A DNA stretch of 39,638 bases from Methylococcaceae bacterium (GTDB lineage: Bacteria; Pseudomonadota; Gammaproteobacteria; Methylococcales; Methylococcaceae), in NCBI GenBank assembly GCA_902812445.1, contig CADDZF010000012.1:1-39638 (forward strand), read 5' to 3'. The position numbers and the translations under genes were made by a program. The notes under the pieces are model-generated. The model made no database searches, was not told the DNA's origin, and saw only the letters and a program-made list of their open reading frames with translations. This document shows positions 2,680 to 9,491 of this stretch, piece after piece. Positions within the stretch are counted from its first letter, which is position 1, and each line of letters starts with the position of its first letter.

Positions 2680-3828
2680 TTACGGGTCGGTGCCGCCTCG
2701 TAAAGGGTAGAGCTTTCGGAAGGGCCCGAGCCGTCGCGCCTCAAGCTCCCGTATCGCTAGGCGCTGATAACAGCGGTTGAAGGATTTCGCCAAAAGCGCC
2801 GTGCCAAAGTAACCGCACGGTAGTTTCGGCCCAGCGGCAGAGTAGTTCAGGGTTTGATACGGCTTGGCTGGCCGGACGTGATGATCGGCGTGGCGGGCCA
2901 GTCCCACGAACGCGTGCAGGGTGAACCAGGAGTCGGTGACCCAAGCATCACGAGGACTGAATCGCTTGTCCTGGCGCAGGAGTCCCCAATGCTGGAAATA
3001 ATTCACCGCCTCGAGTAGCCGCACCGCTGCCAATGCCTGCAGCAGAAACATCGTCGCCGCTAGCCAACCGAAATACCAGCCGATCAGTGCCAGCACCCCC
3101 GACTCCAGCATGACGCCTTGAAAGACCTCGTGACGCAGCAGGCGCACATCGAACGCGGCGTTGCGGCTCATCCCCAAGCGCATATTTTCCAGCCGCCAAG
3201 CACTCTTGAACTGAGCGACCGCCGTGCGCCGCCAAAAGACGTTATAACACTCGCCAAAAAGGGCGCTGGCGGGGTCTTCCGGCGTGCTGGCGTGACGGTG
3301 ATGGCCGCGAATGTGTTCGACGGCAAAATGCTCATAGCAGACCAGGCACAGTAATAGCCGGCCCAGCAATTGCCAAAAACGCTGTGGCCGATGGATAAGC
3401 TCGTGGGCCACCGCGATGCCACAGCAACAGGAATTGGTGCCGACGAGGATGCGTAAGGCGAACAGGTTGGCGAAGCCGGCGGCGATATCGGCCGCGCTGG
3501 TCCAGGTGAGCCGCCGAACCAGATCGAGCATGAGCGCGATATTGACGATCTGAAAGGCGGCGAGAACGAGCAAAATAGCGATAAAAGGCTGAACCGGAAG
3601 CTCGGCGGGGGGATTGCTGCGATCGGAGGGGCCCAACACATCGGCCAGGATGAAGAGCCACACGGGAAGCGTCCAGAGCAGCGCAGCGTCCCAGTCGTGG
3701 GGCCCAGTCAGCAGACAGATAAAGCAGGCAGTGGGCAAGATCAGAGAAATTAGATGGCCGGCAATCGCACGAAGGCTGCCGGAGCTTGCGCGTGGCGGGC
3801 TATAGGTGGCCGCCGGCTTGGCGTTCAT
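2680..3828 (-). CDS. AlkB-type membrane di-iron monooxygenase (alkane hydroxylase family)
   Basis: A 382-residue integral membrane protein with all histidine motifs of the AlkB/XylM branch of the fatty-acid-desaturase superfamily: HELIHR (142-147), EHIRGHHRHASTPEDPASA (from 171), NYFQHWGL (276-283) and RHADHH (312-317), followed by YQTL and LPCGY as in AlkB. About six hydrophobic helices are spread between residues 20 and 275. Family members hydroxylate terminal carbons of alkanes or alkyl chains with electrons from rubredoxin or ferredoxin. None of these partners lies beside it here. Annotation pipelines may call it 'fatty acid desaturase', but the NYxxHWG and TPEDPASA motifs favour a hydroxylase. 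It is divergent from the carbamoyltransferase, with only 71 bases between starts. A TATAAT lies seven bases before the ATG and no Shine-Dalgarno is seen. The substrate is unknown. Confidence 0.82.
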   Translation of the reverse strand: MNAKPAATYSPPRASSGSLRAIAGHLISLILPTACFICLLTGPHDWDAALLWTLPVWLFILADVLGPSDRSNPPAELPVQPFIAILLVLAAFQIVNIALMLDLVRRLTWTSAADIAAGFANLFALRILVGTNSCCCGIAVAHELIHRPQRFWQLLGRLLLCLVCYEHFAVEHIRGHHRHASTPEDPASALFGECYNVFWRRTAVAQFKSAWRLENMRLGMSRNAAFDVRLLRHEVFQGVMLESGVLALIGWYFGWLAATMFLLQALAAVRLLEAVNYFQHWGLLRQDKRFSPRDAWVTDSWFTLHAFVGLARHADHHVRPAKPYQTLNYSAAGPKLPCGYFGTALLAKSFNRCYQRLAIRELEARRLGPFRKLYPLRGGTDP

Positions 3829-3899
3829 GAGCCGATTATAAGCATGCTATCGATCGTTTGCTTATGGTTTAGAATGTGCCGAGCACACGGGTTCACAGC

Positions 3900-5651
3900 A
3901 TGGGAAAAACATACTATATCGGTCTGTCCGCCACCTATCACGATCCGGCTCTGGCCATCCTGGACGATGCCGGCGAAGTGCTCTTCGCCGAGGCGACCGA
4001 GCGCTACCTGCAGTATAAGCGGGCGCTGAACGCCGAACCGGACAACTTGTACCTGATCCCCACGTTGCTCAAGACCTATTGTCCGTCGCCTGATGGCTTC
4101 GTCGTCGCCTACAACTGGCAGGAAAAGCGCCCGCTGTACGAGCGCCTGGTCGCACGAATGGGCATCCTGAAAGCGTCCGGACTGCTCAAGACCGGCATCC
4201 AGCCGCTGGCTTCGCCGCTTCCGAACTATAAGCTGCACCACATGATGGCCTGCCAGCGAAACAGTCTGGCCAAAGCGGGTCTGAACCTGGTGCGCATCAT
4301 TCACGAATTATTCCCGCACAGCCGCATTCGGTTGACCGACTTCGAGCATCACCTGACCCATGCCGCCGGCGCCTGTTATGCCAGCCCTTTCGAGGAGGCT
4401 GCTTGCGCCGTGGTGGATTCGTACGGCGAACGGGGCGCCCTGGCTTTTTATCATTATAAGAACGGAAAGCTGAGCCTTCACTGCGAAACGCACGGACTCG
4501 GTAGTCTGGGATTTTACTACATGAAGCTCACCGAGCTCTGCGGTTTCGACTGGCTGAAGGGCGAGGAGTGGAAAGTGATGGGACTTGCCGCCTATGGGGG
4601 CCTGGACGAAGAGATCTACCCGTTACTGCAATCGATGCTGAGGGTGGAAGGGCTTACCCTGCAGCACCGTCGCCGGCCGCTGTTCGAGGCACTGGACAAG
4701 CTAGAGCGGCGCGCTCTGCGAAACGGAACGGCGCCCGGGCTGGTGGCGAACCTGGCCTATACCGGGCAATATTTTTTTTCCGAGCTGATGACGACGATCT
4801 TGAACAATTTCCATGCCGCAGGCGCATCGGACAACCTGGTGCTGGCCGGCGGCTGTGCACTCAATTCATCCTATAACGGCCAGATTCTGGAAAAAACGCC
4901 GTTCACCCAACTCTATATTCCGCCCGCTCCGGCCGATGACGGTACCGCCTTGGGAGCCGCCTGGCTGGCTTATTTCAATGATCATCCCGAAGCGAGACCC
5001 AAGGCCGAAATGCTATCGCCCTATCTTGGCTCGGACGTTTCGCGGCGGACGCTGCAAAACCTGGCGCGATTTGGTCGCGGCCTTTCAGTGCAGCACTTGC
5101 CGAGAAAATCGGCGGTGGAAACCGCCCGGCTGCTGGCGGATGGCAAACTGATCGGCTGGGTCCAGGGCGGGGCGGAGTTCGGGCCCCGGGCCTTGGGTAA
5201 CCGCTCCATTCTGGCCGATCCGCGCAATGCCGGAATGCGGGATAAGATTAACAATCTTGTCAAACTGCGCGAGGAATATCGACCTCTCGCGCCTTCCATA
5301 TTGCACGAATTCGGCGATGAGTTTTTCTTGCAATATCAGGAATCGCCCTATATGGAGAGAACACTACGCTTTCGCCAGTCAGCCATGCACAAGGTGCCCG
5401 CCGTCGTGCACGTGGACGGCACCGGGCGGCTGCAAACGGTAAAACGGGAATGGAATCCGCGCTTCTACGATCTGATCCTGACGTTCTATCGACTGACCGG
5501 CGTGCCGTTGCTGATCAATACCAGTTTCAACGTCATGGGCAAGCCGATGGCGCACTCCGTCGAGGATATCGTCGGCGTATTCATGACTTCCGGGCTGGAT
5601 GCCCTGGTTATCGAGGATTATATGTTTACCAAACCGGATTGGCGTTCGTGA
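3900..5651 (+). CDS. carbamoyltransferase, NodU/CmcH/TobZ family
   Basis: A predicted O-carbamoyltransferase of about 583 residues, the usual length. The N-terminal Kae1-like half has YIGLSATYHDPALAI and the metal-binding EHHLTHAAGA (His about 150, 151 and 154). DSYGERGALAFYH is the nucleotide-binding strand. The C-terminal YrdC-like half carries EFGPRALGNRSILADPR (from about 426), which forms the carbamoyladenylate site. Family members make carbamoyladenylate from carbamoyl phosphate and ATP and pass the carbamoyl group to a hydroxyl of a sugar or natural product. I place the start at ATG 3900 because family members begin just before this GISAxYHDSA-like strand. An upstream in-frame ATG at 3876 exists, and neither has a clear Shine-Dalgarno. 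The stop overlaps a GTG of the next gene, so the two are probably translationally coupled. Confidence 0.88.
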   Translation: MGKTYYIGLSATYHDPALAILDDAGEVLFAEATERYLQYKRALNAEPDNLYLIPTLLKTYCPSPDGFVVAYNWQEKRPLYERLVARMGILKASGLLKTGIQPLASPLPNYKLHHMMACQRNSLAKAGLNLVRIIHELFPHSRIRLTDFEHHLTHAAGACYASPFEEAACAVVDSYGERGALAFYHYKNGKLSLHCETHGLGSLGFYYMKLTELCGFDWLKGEEWKVMGLAAYGGLDEEIYPLLQSMLRVEGLTLQHRRRPLFEALDKLERRALRNGTAPGLVANLAYTGQYFFSELMTTILNNFHAAGASDNLVLAGGCALNSSYNGQILEKTPFTQLYIPPAPADDGTALGAAWLAYFNDHPEARPKAEMLSPYLGSDVSRRTLQNLARFGRGLSVQHLPRKSAVETARLLADGKLIGWVQGGAEFGPRALGNRSILADPRNAGMRDKINNLVKLREEYRPLAPSILHEFGDEFFLQYQESPYMERTLRFRQSAMHKVPAVVHVDGTGRLQTVKREWNPRFYDLILTFYRLTGVPLLINTSFNVMGKPMAHSVEDIVGVFMTSGLDALVIEDYMFTKPDWRS

Positions 5652-5656
5652 ACGTG

Positions 5657-7903
5657 ATGCGGGCGCCGGTTACCGCGGCCGTCAGGGAATCGGGAAGCGT
5701 CCCTCGTGCTTACACCGAGCGCGAGCTGTTCTATTACCTGATTCATAGCGATGCATATCCCGAGATCGTCCCGGTCGCCTGGTGTTTGATCAACGCTTCG
5801 CTGGCCGACGCTCGCGGGCGATTCGGCAGAGAAGGACGATTGGATGATGACACCCTGCCCGATTCACTGACGCTCACCCCGCGATCGGAGCGTGCGACTT
5901 TCACCACGACCGCGGGATGTGTCGAACTGGTGCGCCAGCTTGCCCCGCTGCGCTTATTGGGAGTCGCTTGGTTGCAATCGATCTCGCAAGCGGCGACCGG
6001 CCACCTCGACGTCCACGCAGCCTTGTTCGGCATGTATTTGCATCTCACCGAAGGCGATCGTGGGGATCAGCGGCCGGCCAGTTTGTACCGCGCCTTATTG
6101 GCGCACCTGGGCATCTTTTTGCCGGAGATCGATAGCTGGGTGTTTGCCCAGCACGAGAAGCTGCTGGATGCCGCCTTCGAGCCTGCCGTGATCAGCCTCT
6201 GCCTGGGGCTATTTCCCCGCCTTCTATTCCCCGAAATTCTCGGCTTTACGCTGGCGCACTGCCAGGACCGGGCACCGCTATCTGCCTGGTCTATGGCCAC
6301 GCAGCCTAAAGCGGCTATCCCGCTGAGTTATTTCACGCTTTACGACCGGCTTCTCGGTGCGCAGCGCGATTCTTGCAAGCAGGCAATCGAACAGTATCTC
6401 CGCGAGCTTCCGGGCGATGATGAACGCGCTGCCGGACGTCAGAGAGTTCGCACCGGTGTTGGCCTCTATGAGTCCGCCGACGCTCGTTTTCGCTCGGCGC
6501 TGATTCATCGGCTGAACGATGCTCCCGATGCGCGGGCACAGCTTGCTGACCTATTGCGGCGCAAGGCCCCCTATGCCCGCGGCTTCCACCGGCAAGCCCG
6601 GTTGGGGGGAGAACCGCTGGACGCCTGGTTCGCCGCAGAACCCTTCGATGCCGAGCGGTTTCTCGACGAGCTCGCCGCATCGTCCTATCTTGATCCGCAG
6701 CAGCCGGAGGCAAGTTCATTTTTTAGGCTGCTCGAATTCGGCGGCCCGATGTACGGCGTTTTCAGCGAAGAAGAGCAGAGGATTTTTCGCGATTGGCTAG
6801 AGTCCATCAAACGAAACGATGACACGCAGGAATTCGTGGGAGACCCTGCATCCTGCGGGAAAGCTGAAATCCGGCTGGCCGATACCGCCGCTGAACCGCT
6901 GGTACGGGCGCAAGGGATGCCACAGCCAGCGACCGACCGACTGTGCGATAAGGCGGCGAACCCCCTCGACCTGGACCGTCTGAAAAACCGCGAGGCGTTC
7001 TATTACTTGATCAATTGCGATCGCTATCCTGACGTGTATCACACGGCCAGGCGGCGGGTGGCGCGTTGTTTGCGGAAAACAGATCGCGGCACACCGTTCC
7101 AGCGGCGAGATCATCAGGAGTTCTTTCCTTATCGCCCGGATCGCTTCGCGCGCTGGCTTGATGAACTTTACCGACGACAAGCGCAAGCCTTTAGGCCGGT
7201 CACGCCGCCCCCTCGGTTAAGCCGGGAAGCGTATCGATGGAGCATCGAACAGTTTGCACCCGCCATCCTGGTCGACGGCTGCTGGTTGCAGAACGCCTTC
7301 CGGGCGGATGCCGGGCAACCCGACCTCGCCGAGCGCCTGCTCAGGATTTACGCCGATGAGGTCGGCAACGGTGATCCGCAGCGCAATCATGCCAATGTTT
7401 ACCGGCGCTTGTTGGGAAGTCTTGACATCCACTTGCCCGCCGTCGATTCGCGCGCATTTTGCGCCCATCCCGGATTTCTCGATGCGGCCTTTGATCTGCC
7501 GGTTTATCTCATGGCGATTTCGTTGCTTCCACGCGAATTCCAGCCCGAAATTCTCGGTCTCAACCTGGCCATTGAATTGAGCGGGCTGGGCGCTGGCTAC
7601 CGCCGACTCGCGGATGAGATGGATTACTGGGGCATCGACTCATCGATCGTCCGCCTGCATCAGTCCATCGATAACTACGCCACAGGCCATGCGGCGCTCG
7701 CCAAAGAGGCCGTCATTCTATACCTCGATGATGCCTTGGCGCGAGGCGGCAAGGAGGACATGCAGAAGTGCTGGCGGCGGGTCTGGATCGGCTACCGCTC
7801 GCTTGCGGCTTCCGTGAGGCGGTTCAAGCTCGGCTGGTCGCTCGGATATGCCCGCAGGTTTCTGCTGGCGAAGCTGGGCACAAGCGTGCGACGTCGGGGC
7901 TAA
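5657..7903 (+). CDS. tandem-duplicated heme-oxygenase-like di-iron oxidase (HDO) family protein
   Basis: About 748 residues with two homologous halves. Each begins with an FYYLI..D.YP segment (near 25 and 448). Each then has an AP..L..WLQ helix, a Y.ALL/Y.RLL..L.I.LP..DS segment, LDAAF, and a PEILG helix (about 192 and 631). The second half carries plausible iron ligands of the HDO superfamily ('iron-containing redox enzyme'): E568 and H578 in YADEVGNGDPQRNH, E640, and H668, D672 and H678 in HQSIDNYATGH. The first half keeps the fold signature, but at the aligned places has L, P, C, F, D and Q, so it looks catalytically dead. HDO enzymes oxidise fatty acids or amino-acid-derived substrates. 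The start could also be GTG 5648, which overlaps the carbamoyltransferase stop. An open frame continues upstream inside that gene but there has shadow-like composition. The substrate is unknown. Confidence 0.75.
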   Translation: MRAPVTAAVRESGSVPRAYTERELFYYLIHSDAYPEIVPVAWCLINASLADARGRFGREGRLDDDTLPDSLTLTPRSERATFTTTAGCVELVRQLAPLRLLGVAWLQSISQAATGHLDVHAALFGMYLHLTEGDRGDQRPASLYRALLAHLGIFLPEIDSWVFAQHEKLLDAAFEPAVISLCLGLFPRLLFPEILGFTLAHCQDRAPLSAWSMATQPKAAIPLSYFTLYDRLLGAQRDSCKQAIEQYLRELPGDDERAAGRQRVRTGVGLYESADARFRSALIHRLNDAPDARAQLADLLRRKAPYARGFHRQARLGGEPLDAWFAAEPFDAERFLDELAASSYLDPQQPEASSFFRLLEFGGPMYGVFSEEEQRIFRDWLESIKRNDDTQEFVGDPASCGKAEIRLADTAAEPLVRAQGMPQPATDRLCDKAANPLDLDRLKNREAFYYLINCDRYPDVYHTARRRVARCLRKTDRGTPFQRRDHQEFFPYRPDRFARWLDELYRRQAQAFRPVTPPPRLSREAYRWSIEQFAPAILVDGCWLQNAFRADAGQPDLAERLLRIYADEVGNGDPQRNHANVYRRLLGSLDIHLPAVDSRAFCAHPGFLDAAFDLPVYLMAISLLPREFQPEILGLNLAIELSGLGAGYRRLADEMDYWGIDSSIVRLHQSIDNYATGHAALAKEAVILYLDDALARGGKEDMQKCWRRVWIGYRSLAASVRRFKLGWSLGYARRFLLAKLGTSVRRRG

Positions 7904-8210
7904 ACCGGTCGACGCCCCTCGTTGAGCCTTTGTAAAAATTCGTTGGCGCCCTGCGCGCGACGTTTGTCTCGCAGTTCGTCTCGATGCAACGGGCGTTGGC
8001 CACAACGGCCGCGCCGGCAGGCCATCATGCTTGTTTTTTGCAGGCCTGCGATAATCGAGCGCAGTTTCCCATGCCAATCGGATCAGGATGAATCCTGCCA
8101 TCAAGGCTCATTACAAGGCTCGGCGCCGGGTGCGTGGGGACGTCGATGCGTTAGCCCCTTCGCCGTGGTGAAAAGTTTTGCGTCTTCTCAATAACCTACA
8201 GGGGGGCGGC
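7904..8210. other. intergenic region without a gene, one possible hairpin
   Basis: This gap lies between the HDO gene and the flippase. I see no convincing coding frame in it. GCAGGCC at 8017-8023 can pair with GGCCTGC at 8043-8049 across a loop that includes a run of six T. It is not a classic terminator because the T run is inside the loop rather than after the stem. A promoter for the flippase could lie here, but I cannot identify one. Confidence 0.4.
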
Positions 8211-9491
8211 TTGAGACGCCGTCTCACCCGCGATGCGGTTGGCGCATTTGGCCTTAGGGTTTGCGGGTTGGGGCTCAATTTCCTTTTGAGTCTTTTGCTG
8301 GCCCGCTTGCTGGGCGCCGGAGAGTACGGATCTTATGCATTCGCGGTCTCGCTGGCTGGTTTGGTCGGTGTGCCGGCGCTGATGGGTATGGATAAGCTAC
8401 TGATGCGTCAATCGGCCATTTATGTTGCCCAGGCCGAATGGGGATTGCTGCGCGGCTTGTTGCGCCGCGCGAATCAAGCGGCGCTCGTCTTGGCGCTCGG
8501 ACTCGGGCTCGTCGCCGGCGGGGTGGTCTGGTGGACGCCGCACATGATCGGCATCACGCCGCCGCAGACCGTGTGGCTGGCGCTGGGCCTTCTTCCCGCA
8601 TTGAGCCTGACGCGGCTGCGGCAGGCGGTCTTGCGCGGACTGCACCAAGCCGCGCGAGCGCAGTTGCCTGAGATGGTGACACAGCCGGCGGTTTTTGTGT
8701 TGTTGCTGCTTTGTCTGTGGCGTTTTGGCGAGCTGGCGCCGACTGCGACTTCGGCTTTGGCGCTGAATTTGCTCGCGAGCACTGGCGCGTTTATTCACGG
8801 CGCGATCCTGCTGCGCAAGGCATTTCCTCAGCCGGTCCGCGCCTCTTCTCACGCCTACAGGACCGATGATTGGCTGCGCGGTGCATTGCCCTTGATGGCC
8901 CTAGGCTGCGTTCAGGCGTTCAACGCGCAGATCGACTTACTGTTGATTGGCGTTTTGCTGTCTCCGGAGCAGACCGGGCTGTACGCGGTGGCCCTGAAGG
9001 GAGCGGCGTTGGTGGCGATCGTGGCGGAGGTGGTGAATACCGTCTTGGCTCCCGCCGTGGCCAGTCTCCATGCGAGCGGAGAGAGCGGGCGCTTGCAGCG
9101 GATGATGGCGCGCAGTACGCGCAGCGTGTTCCTGTTATCCCTGCCGGCTGGCCTAGTATTGACAGTCTTCGCGGAGCGGTTTCTGGCACTTTTCGGCGCT
9201 GAATTCGTCGGCGGCGCCACCGCGCTGGCGATCCTCAGCATCGGCCAAGTGAGCTGCATGACGATGGGATCGGCCGGTTTGCTGCTGACGATGACCGGCC
9301 ATGAACGCGATACTGCCGGCGCATTCGCGCTCGGCGCGCTATCAAATCTGGCTCTGATCCTGTTATTTGCGCCGCGCTGGGGAATCAATGGCGTCGCATT
9401 CGGCAAGGGGCTGAGTCTGGTGGCTTTGCACCTGTTTCTGACGTGGCGGGTTCGCCGGCGACTCGGATTTTATGCAACAGCGTTGAACTAA
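8211..9491 (+). CDS. polysaccharide/lipid flippase-like membrane protein (MOP superfamily, Wzx/RfbX-like)
   Basis: A strongly hydrophobic protein of about 426 residues with around 12 predicted membrane helices. The N-terminus (FGLRVCGLGLNFLLSLLLAR, then LGAGEYGSYAFAVSLA) is the standard opening of Wzx-type oligosaccharide flippases. So is the mid-protein LLLIGVLLSPEQTGLYAVA, with the conserved LG-x-YA/GLYAVA turns. Such proteins move lipid-linked sugars or lipids across the cytoplasmic membrane. I propose TTG 8211 as start because AGGGGGG lies just before it. An in-frame TTG at 8178 would add 11 residues. It is co-directional with the carbamoyltransferase/HDO pair but separated by about 300 bases, so it may have its own promoter. 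The cargo cannot be deduced. It could export the product of this block or act in exopolysaccharide synthesis. Confidence 0.78.
   Translation: MRRRLTRDAVGAFGLRVCGLGLNFLLSLLLARLLGAGEYGSYAFAVSLAGLVGVPALMGMDKLLMRQSAIYVAQAEWGLLRGLLRRANQAALVLALGLGLVAGGVVWWTPHMIGITPPQTVWLALGLLPALSLTRLRQAVLRGLHQAARAQLPEMVTQPAVFVLLLLCLWRFGELAPTATSALALNLLASTGAFIHGAILLRKAFPQPVRASSHAYRTDDWLRGALPLMALGCVQAFNAQIDLLLIGVLLSPEQTGLYAVALKGAALVAIVAEVVNTVLAPAVASLHASGESGRLQRMMARSTRSVFLLSLPAGLVLTVFAERFLALFGAEFVGGATALAILSIGQVSCMTMGSAGLLLTMTGHERDTAGAFALGALSNLALILLFAPRWGINGVAFGKGLSLVALHLFLTWRVRRRLGFYATALN

Follow-up and report, generated by a model that had tools for sequence, protein, structure and literature searches.

Two haem-oxygenase-like units, one degenerate and one intact, fused in a protein linked to carbamoyltransferase and AlkB-type genes in Methylococcales

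The stretch of 39 638 nucleotides analysed here (the window; Methylococcaceae bacterium, assembly GCA_902812445.1, contig CADDZF010000012.1) contains a NodU/TobZ-type carbamoyltransferase gene followed by a gene for a 748-residue protein built from two haem-oxygenase-like diiron oxidase (HDO) units. This raises the question of what an oxidase with one apparently dead half does beside an enzyme of carbamoyl transfer. The original prediction was that the protein is a fused pseudoenzyme–enzyme pair, and this is borne out: unit 1 is a degenerate pseudo-HDO which keeps the HDO fold and unit 2 has intact ligands. A third member of the cassette, a divergent AlkB-type monooxygenase, had been overlooked. 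Our confidence in the anatomy and linkage of this three-gene cassette is high. With somewhat less than even confidence, we read it as a compact oxidative tailoring pathway in which AlkB-like hydroxylation, O-carbamoylation and HDO oxidation would be combined, with unit 1 as a relic.

Unit 2 is predicted from its sequence to be a live HDO with a diiron site. It matches the Pfam family Haem_oxygenas_2 (PF14518; E = 5e-19), whereas unit 1 has no Pfam match. In the AlphaFold model of the full-length protein [mean predicted local distance difference test (pLDDT) score 85.6, predicted template-modelling (pTM) score 0.82] its fold agrees with those of RohS, HrmI and SznF with Z scores of 22.8, 22.3 and 21.9, respectively. 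All 44 proteins compared retain the six probable iron ligands that had been assigned to this half (E568, H578, E640, H668, D672 and H678), with a single substitution of D for E, and a joint alignment gives the pattern EHEHDH (in one case DHEHDH) in every second unit and in all 12 single-unit HDOs.

For unit 1, residues 1–441 were folded alone with 40 family members, giving a model with a mean pLDDT of 82 that rises above 90 in the core. Superposition with VIA-align gave Z scores of 23.3 for HrmI (over 261 residues), 22.2 for RohS, 19.8 for SznF, 16 for CADD and 14.6 for UndA; both halves fit the HDO fold, as had been proposed. Judged from the models, both units appear closer to the N-oxygenase branch than to UndA or BesC. 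The ligands of unit 2 pair with residues of unit 1 in the window as E568/L130, H578/P140, E640/C202, H668/F226, D672/D230 and H678/Q236, although the alignment of the F226–Q236 stretch is uncertain and one alignment places a gap at F226. The claim that five ligands are replaced and that D672 alone is kept is thus correct for these pairs, but D230 is not a conserved survivor: the position holds E, S, Q, R or a gap in other relatives. A complete ligand set is absent from all 57 first units aligned. As EHEHDH is kept in the second and single units and is missing from every one of these first units, the contrast is not a matter of chance. A planctomycete relative (L008, positions 1–1964) retains E, H, H and D in unit 1, four of the six ligands, and is the sole relative in which Pfam detects both units. 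We note this unit as a candidate intermediate in the loss of the first active site.

The dead half is, on sequence comparison, the faster evolving of the two, with the first units less alike than the second units in 1593 of 1596 pairs (mean identities of 23 and 38%, respectively). In a tree of the halves all first units fall on the same side of one branch (SH-aLRT 90, from a quick method, several branches being long), in keeping with one old duplication or fusion event. Unit 1 is followed at about residues 292–391 by a domain without a Pfam match, in which K303, H311, W324, FGGPM (361–365), E373 and W380 are conserved, and this domain also comes after the sole HDO unit of single-unit gammaproteobacterial proteins. 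The resulting order of dead HDO, this domain and live HDO could have arisen by duplication of an HDO-plus-domain unit and subsequent loss of the last domain. The dead-plus-live architecture is not peculiar to this locus but is a trait of the whole GvgC/AzsE-type family, a point missed by the original prediction. In AzsE, which shares 27% identity with GvgC, a heme-oxygenase domain has been described only at the C-terminus (residues 528–706; PMC10445470), and within the literature searched the recognition of a degenerate N-terminal unit appears to be new. The role of unit 1 is probably structural or substrate-positioning.

The carbamoyltransferase matches the Pfam families Carbam_trans_N (E = 1e-32) and Carbam_trans_C (E = 2e-65), contains the carbamoyltransferase motifs, including HHLTHA, and has solved relatives in NovN (1.5e-63), TobZ (1e-59), PDB entry 7xb6 (2e-59) and GdmN (1e-56). 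It resembles the O-carbamoyltransferases TobZ, NovN and GdmN in both Pfam domains and in the motifs along the N- and C-domains, but lies on a long separate branch. The AlkB-type protein matches the solved alkane 1-monooxygenases 8f6t (E = 3.5e-39) and 8sbb (E = 8e-29) and contains all of the histidine boxes of the AlkB family (HExxH, HxxxHH, H and HxxHH). The nine box histidines (H142, H146, H172, H176, H177, H280, H313, H316 and H317) are invariant in 35–36 relatives. It is like AlkB in these histidines and in overall alignment, but differs in having no fused rubredoxin and in being linked to the carbamoyltransferase and the HDO. With six HDO ligands, nine AlkB histidines and the transferase motifs all intact, the three enzymes look catalytically competent.

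The HDO protein was found in 44 of 61 Methylococcales genomes. Among 40 loci that were fetched the carbamoyltransferase lies on the same stretch in 37, nearly always adjacent, so that it is a conserved neighbour in related genomes, as the original prediction required. Two of the other three loci are contig ends and the third genome (G001) has the transferase and AlkB-like genes together elsewhere. An AlkB-like gene, almost always divergent, is also present at 33 of the 40. Of 50 good-quality genomes, 37 have both the AlkB and the HDO gene and 13 have neither, and none has only one of the two. The presence of the transferase (counted at ≥50% identity) agrees with that of the HDO in 49 of these genomes; in the remaining one, G009, the HDO gene lies at the end of a contig. 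Fisher's test gives p ≈ 3e-12 for this co-occurrence, a value which is inflated by shared ancestry, and for this reason we place weight on concordant losses and split cassettes. None of the three genes is present in G004 or G040, which are surrounded by cassette carriers, while G001, G020 and G051 have broken linkage yet still hold all three. On this evidence from gene content the cassette is gained and lost as a unit.

In the complete genome G054 (L053, 10870–12973) the transferase and AlkB-like genes both lack N-terminal sequence on the two sides of the promoter region that they share, and the HDO protein has only 600 residues; as all three genes are shortened, this cassette seems to be decaying together. 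The planctomycete relatives L003 and L008 showed no partner gene of the cassette. We also considered the cassette as a marker of methanotrophy and rejected this, as matches to pmoA-type ammonia monooxygenase (AMO) do not track it and families f6, f7 and f8 have AMO matches and no cassette. In the assembly of the window itself (G000) no pmoA/amoA-type gene was found; most relatives have one, and it is possibly missing from the fragmented assembly.

No named system with this pairing was known to the original prediction, but GvgC and GvgF were published together in 2021 within the core of gvg-like clusters, stated as gvgA, gvgB, gvgC and gvgF (Davis et al., 2021, PMC8064604; PMC8067088). The gvg cluster produces 4-formylaminooxyvinylglycine (FVG), a herbicidal amino acid and N–O product which carries an aminooxy group, and both GvgC and GvgF, a NodU-family carbamoyltransferase, are required for it (PMC8064604, PMC8067088). 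The gvg clusters share with the cassette a two-unit HDO with a dead first unit beside a carbamoyltransferase of this family. A Pseudomonas-type genome (L145) contains a complete gvg cluster in the order R-A-C-D-E-F-H-I-J-K, matching the published order and gene content, and the GvgC proteins of L145 and L146 have the architecture and ligand pattern of the window HDO, with 27% identity over 620 residues. The differences are nonetheless considerable. The cassette and gvg HDOs are only 27–33% identical, an AlkB-like monooxygenase is added, and gvgB is not seen; most loci have no room for a small gvgB-like open reading frame (ORF) before the transferase, the gap being too short (small ORFs elsewhere were not searched). 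A gvgA-like SGNH/GDSL hydrolase had no match in the window genome, in a search made without a positive control, and none is evident among the neighbours. By sequence the cassette transferase is not an orthologue of GvgF: the cassette transferases form a clade apart, and their grouping with the gvg-like ones was rejected (p-AU 0.0067, from a quick tree with long stems). We therefore decided against filing the cassette as a gvg-like cluster, the transferase being outside the GvgF clade and gvgA not having been found, and on sequence grounds it is a variant related to gvg clusters. The text of PMC8064604 does not mention Methylococcales. As the transferase clade is separate from GvgF, the tree, in which the sampling of carbamoyltransferases is limited, suggests that the HDO–carbamoyltransferase pair was assembled more than once; repeated assembly, if true, would strengthen the functional link.

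Further carbamoyltransferases were noted in these genomes. Genomes of genus g16 have a second, unlinked carbamoyltransferase of the cassette type with 52–53% identity (L163, G037:C88; L164, G044:C24; also G050:C17), and some Methylococcales (L151, L155, L157, L161 and L165) hold another that groups with the gvg-like ones. G004, which has no cassette, is among the carriers of the latter.

Outside Methylococcales a two-unit HDO stands beside a carbamoyltransferase in the gvg-type clusters L109, L110, L111, L126, L131, L132 and L145–L149. A different oxygenase is found in some of these, of TauD type in L109, L111 and L149 and of SidA type in L126, as if different hydroxylating enzymes might feed one step. 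Azaserine-type Streptomyces clusters (L128 and L129) have a two-unit HDO, again with a dead first unit, beside an acyl-CoA dehydrogenase, a P450 and a saccharopine dehydrogenase in the order of azsC–azsI. AzsE and the HDO of N-nitroglycine clusters differ from the cassette in occurring without a carbamoyltransferase or AlkB and with hydrazine/nonribosomal peptide synthetase (NRPS) chemistry instead, and the HDOs of azaserine-type clusters are candidates for N-oxidation (PMC10445470, PMC13274452). The closest solved folds to both units are the N-oxygenases HrmI, RohS and SznF. These have the same six-ligand diiron site as unit 2, but contain a single HDO unit (SznF adds a cupin) and share only about 10–16% identity with the cassette protein.

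Three arrangements outside Methylococcales were noted separately. L109, L111 and L149, from Pseudomonas-type genomes and one more distant proteobacterium, combine a two-unit HDO and a carbamoyltransferase with an SGNH hydrolase, a TauD dioxygenase, two ATP-grasp ligases and a LysE exporter; by gene content this looks like a cluster for an unexplored amino-acid or dipeptide antimetabolite. On the Agrobacterium vitis plasmid pRvVAR031a (L126) a two-unit HDO, LysE, a carbamoyltransferase and an SGNH hydrolase lie beside ectB, a SidA-type N-hydroxylase, a pyridoxal phosphate (PLP) enzyme and a ketoacyl synthase III, for which an N-hydroxylated diaminobutyrate is a possible product. The rhizobial plasmid pSmeSM11b of Sinorhizobium meliloti (L127) carries an azaserine-like set comprising a class I tRNA-ligase-like protein, an NRPS, an acyl carrier protein, a C45 peptidase, a two-unit HDO and an acyl-CoA dehydrogenase.

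From the gene set, its co-occurrence, the folds and the gain and loss of ligands, all of which are observed, we infer an order of reactions, an N-oxidation, a product and a role for unit 1. The AlkB-like membrane enzyme would place a hydroxyl on an unactivated carbon in a metabolite that is small or lipid-like, and the carbamoyltransferase would convert the hydroxyl to an O-carbamate, R-O-CO-NH2. Unit 2, using its diiron site and O2, would then oxidise the carbamoylated product, most likely at the carbamate nitrogen, to give an N-hydroxycarbamate or, after rearrangement and loss of CO2, an aminooxy compound. Rearrangement of an N-hydroxycarbamate with CO2 loss would yield R-O-NH2, the group carried by FVG. 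Unit 1 may be the relic of an HDO that persists because it serves folding, assembly or the placing of substrate rather than iron chemistry. N-oxidation is favoured because of the fold neighbours, the N–N or N–O products of other pathways that use this HDO subfamily and the nitrogen supplied by the transferase. In a bolder version, which we regard as doubtful, methanotrophs would possess a previously undescribed three-enzyme route to a metabolite of the N-hydroxycarbamate or aminooxy type, and the oxidation of a carbamate nitrogen by a fused pseudo-HDO and HDO would be common to this cassette and to FVG biosynthesis, assembled repeatedly with unrelated carbamoyltransferases.

Several points weigh against the tailoring pathway with N-oxidation. 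The AzsE-type clusters examined have no carbamoyltransferase, so the substrate of the HDO need not be a carbamate. Similarity of fold does not fix the reaction, and relatives of AlkB often act on lipids, which would make N-oxidation less obvious. Attempts with AzsE and AzsG in vitro failed (PMC10445470), the literature shows no reaction for any GvgC- or AzsE-type protein, and the literature searched gave nothing on a function for GvgC/GvgF or for methanotroph carbamoyltransferase clusters. The Methylococcales cassette has no conserved transporter, activating enzyme or carrier next to it, and the co-occurrence counts are not phylogenetically independent.

The lipid chemistry of many AlkB relatives leads to an unlikely competitor, in which a fatty acyl, hydrocarbon or hopanoid chain receives a hydroxyl from the AlkB-like enzyme and is then carbamoylated, and the HDO desaturates it or cleaves C–C or C–H bonds in the manner of UndA or MboA, so that the product is a membrane lipid or a fatty-acid derivative. 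AlkB belongs to the alkane hydroxylases, fatty-acid decarboxylases and desaturases are found among the HDOs (PMC13108848, PMC13185094), and a near order-wide, single-copy spread without export genes fits a housekeeping lipid better than a secreted antibiotic. However, N-oxygenases are clearly the better match for both units, ahead of UndA and BesC, the products of known clusters containing this HDO subfamily are amino-acid-derived N–N or N–O compounds, and no lipid gene is conserved near the cassette. Methylcarbamate hopanoids have been reported in type I methanotrophs (PMC5100885); we considered them as a product and leave them as speculation, as no gene points to them, their N-CO-OCH3 group is not made by an O-carbamoyltransferase and no hopanoid gene is conserved nearby. 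We consider it rather improbable that the cassette instead belongs to a variant gvg-like antimetabolite pathway which starts from a free amino acid, leads to a compound of the aminooxy or vinylglycine type and has its other steps encoded elsewhere. The gvg-like core does contain this gene pair (PMC8064604), and free amino acids can be substrates for hydroxylation by membrane enzymes in the PF00487 superfamily, as in guanitoxin GntB (a weak NCBIfam match), but neither a LysE exporter nor an ATP-grasp ligase is conserved with the cassette among the Methylococcales loci, in addition to the position of the transferase and the gvgA search described above.

A protective or regulatory rather than biosynthetic HDO protein, the kind of role suggested for DtpC (desiccation, peroxide) and in early work for GvgC, seems very improbable, as the gene is tightly linked to, and lost together with, those of two biosynthetic-type enzymes. 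Many Gammaproteobacteria have single-unit HDOs that are followed by the same domain, and by analogy Acinetobacter baumannii DtpC, whose HDO ligands are required for the protection of dried cells (PMC13232832), may speak for it. Knockouts of gvgC alter hundreds of transcripts, but these changes resemble those of other gvg mutants and are explained by product feedback (PMC8067088). Slighter still is the prospect that unit 1 is not dead but has a different cofactor or a second catalytic activity. Its fold and full length are maintained across very large distances, L008 keeps four ligands, and E193, G196 and A200 are nearly invariant, but no polar residue is conserved across unit 1 at the six ligand positions and its faster evolution speaks against such a function.

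The tailoring pathway would have consequences beyond this locus. The presence of the cassette in 37 of 50 good-quality Methylococcales genomes predicts a so far unnamed metabolite that many methanotrophs make, and if the three-enzyme N-oxidation route is true this metabolite would be of general importance to them. The putative pathway of the cassette looks akin to those for herbicidal FVG and antitumour azaserine, and the cassette joins two open problems: the function of GvgC/AzsE-type proteins (the N–O bond of FVG and the diazo group of azaserine) and the persistence of a degenerate copy. The three-gene version of the methanotrophs may be the simplest setting for HDO action on a carbamoylated substrate.

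The features are collected in Table 1; the genome of the window (contig G000:C12) was placed in Methylococcales from its relatives, and the gene coordinates of the original prediction were correct. The likeliest start of the carbamoyltransferase is the ATG at 3900, at which base homology begins, and its stop is TGA 5649–5651. The HDO gene starts at ATG 5657, five bases past this stop, with an in-frame GTG at 5654, so the two window genes are tightly coupled and do not overlap, contrary to what had been described; an overlap of about four bases is seen in several relatives. The AlkB-like gene lies directly upstream of the carbamoyltransferase. In relatives the divergent spacer measures 5–228 bases between homology starts. 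A shared regulator site in it was considered and rejected, the spacer being too short and variable to show one.

Table 1. Positions of the cassette genes and of the units of the HDO protein in the window
Feature	Position	Strand	Evidence
AlkB-type integral-membrane non-heme diiron monooxygenase	2680–3828	(-)	PF00487 E = 4e-25; solved alkane 1-monooxygenases; nine box histidines
Intergenic spacer, AlkB-like gene/carbamoyltransferase, divergent	3829–3899	no strand	Spacing in relatives
NodU/TobZ-type O-carbamoyltransferase	3900–5651	(+)	Carbam_trans_N/_C; solved relatives
Two-unit HDO protein (GvgC/AzsE-type), 748 residues	5657–7903	(+)	Pfam; AlphaFold model
HDO unit 1, about residues 17–291, fold without iron ligands	5705–6529	(+)	Own model; VIA-align; alignments
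Conserved domain after unit 1, about residues 292–391	6530–6829	(+)	Residue conservation; no Pfam match
Low-confidence linker, residues 392–440	6830–6976	(+)	pLDDT <50 over most of 393–434
HDO unit 2, residues 441–748, full ligand set	6977–7900	(+)	PF14518; fold; invariant ligands

Three neighbouring genes in the window are not conserved with the cassette. The first (1258–2550) encodes a 430-residue protein with no Pfam match and weak similarity to glycoside hydrolases (GH35, E = 6e-6). It adjoins a gene for a family 2 (GT2) glycosyltransferase (148–1029), and a gene for a Wzx-like flippase (8178–9491) lies after the HDO gene.

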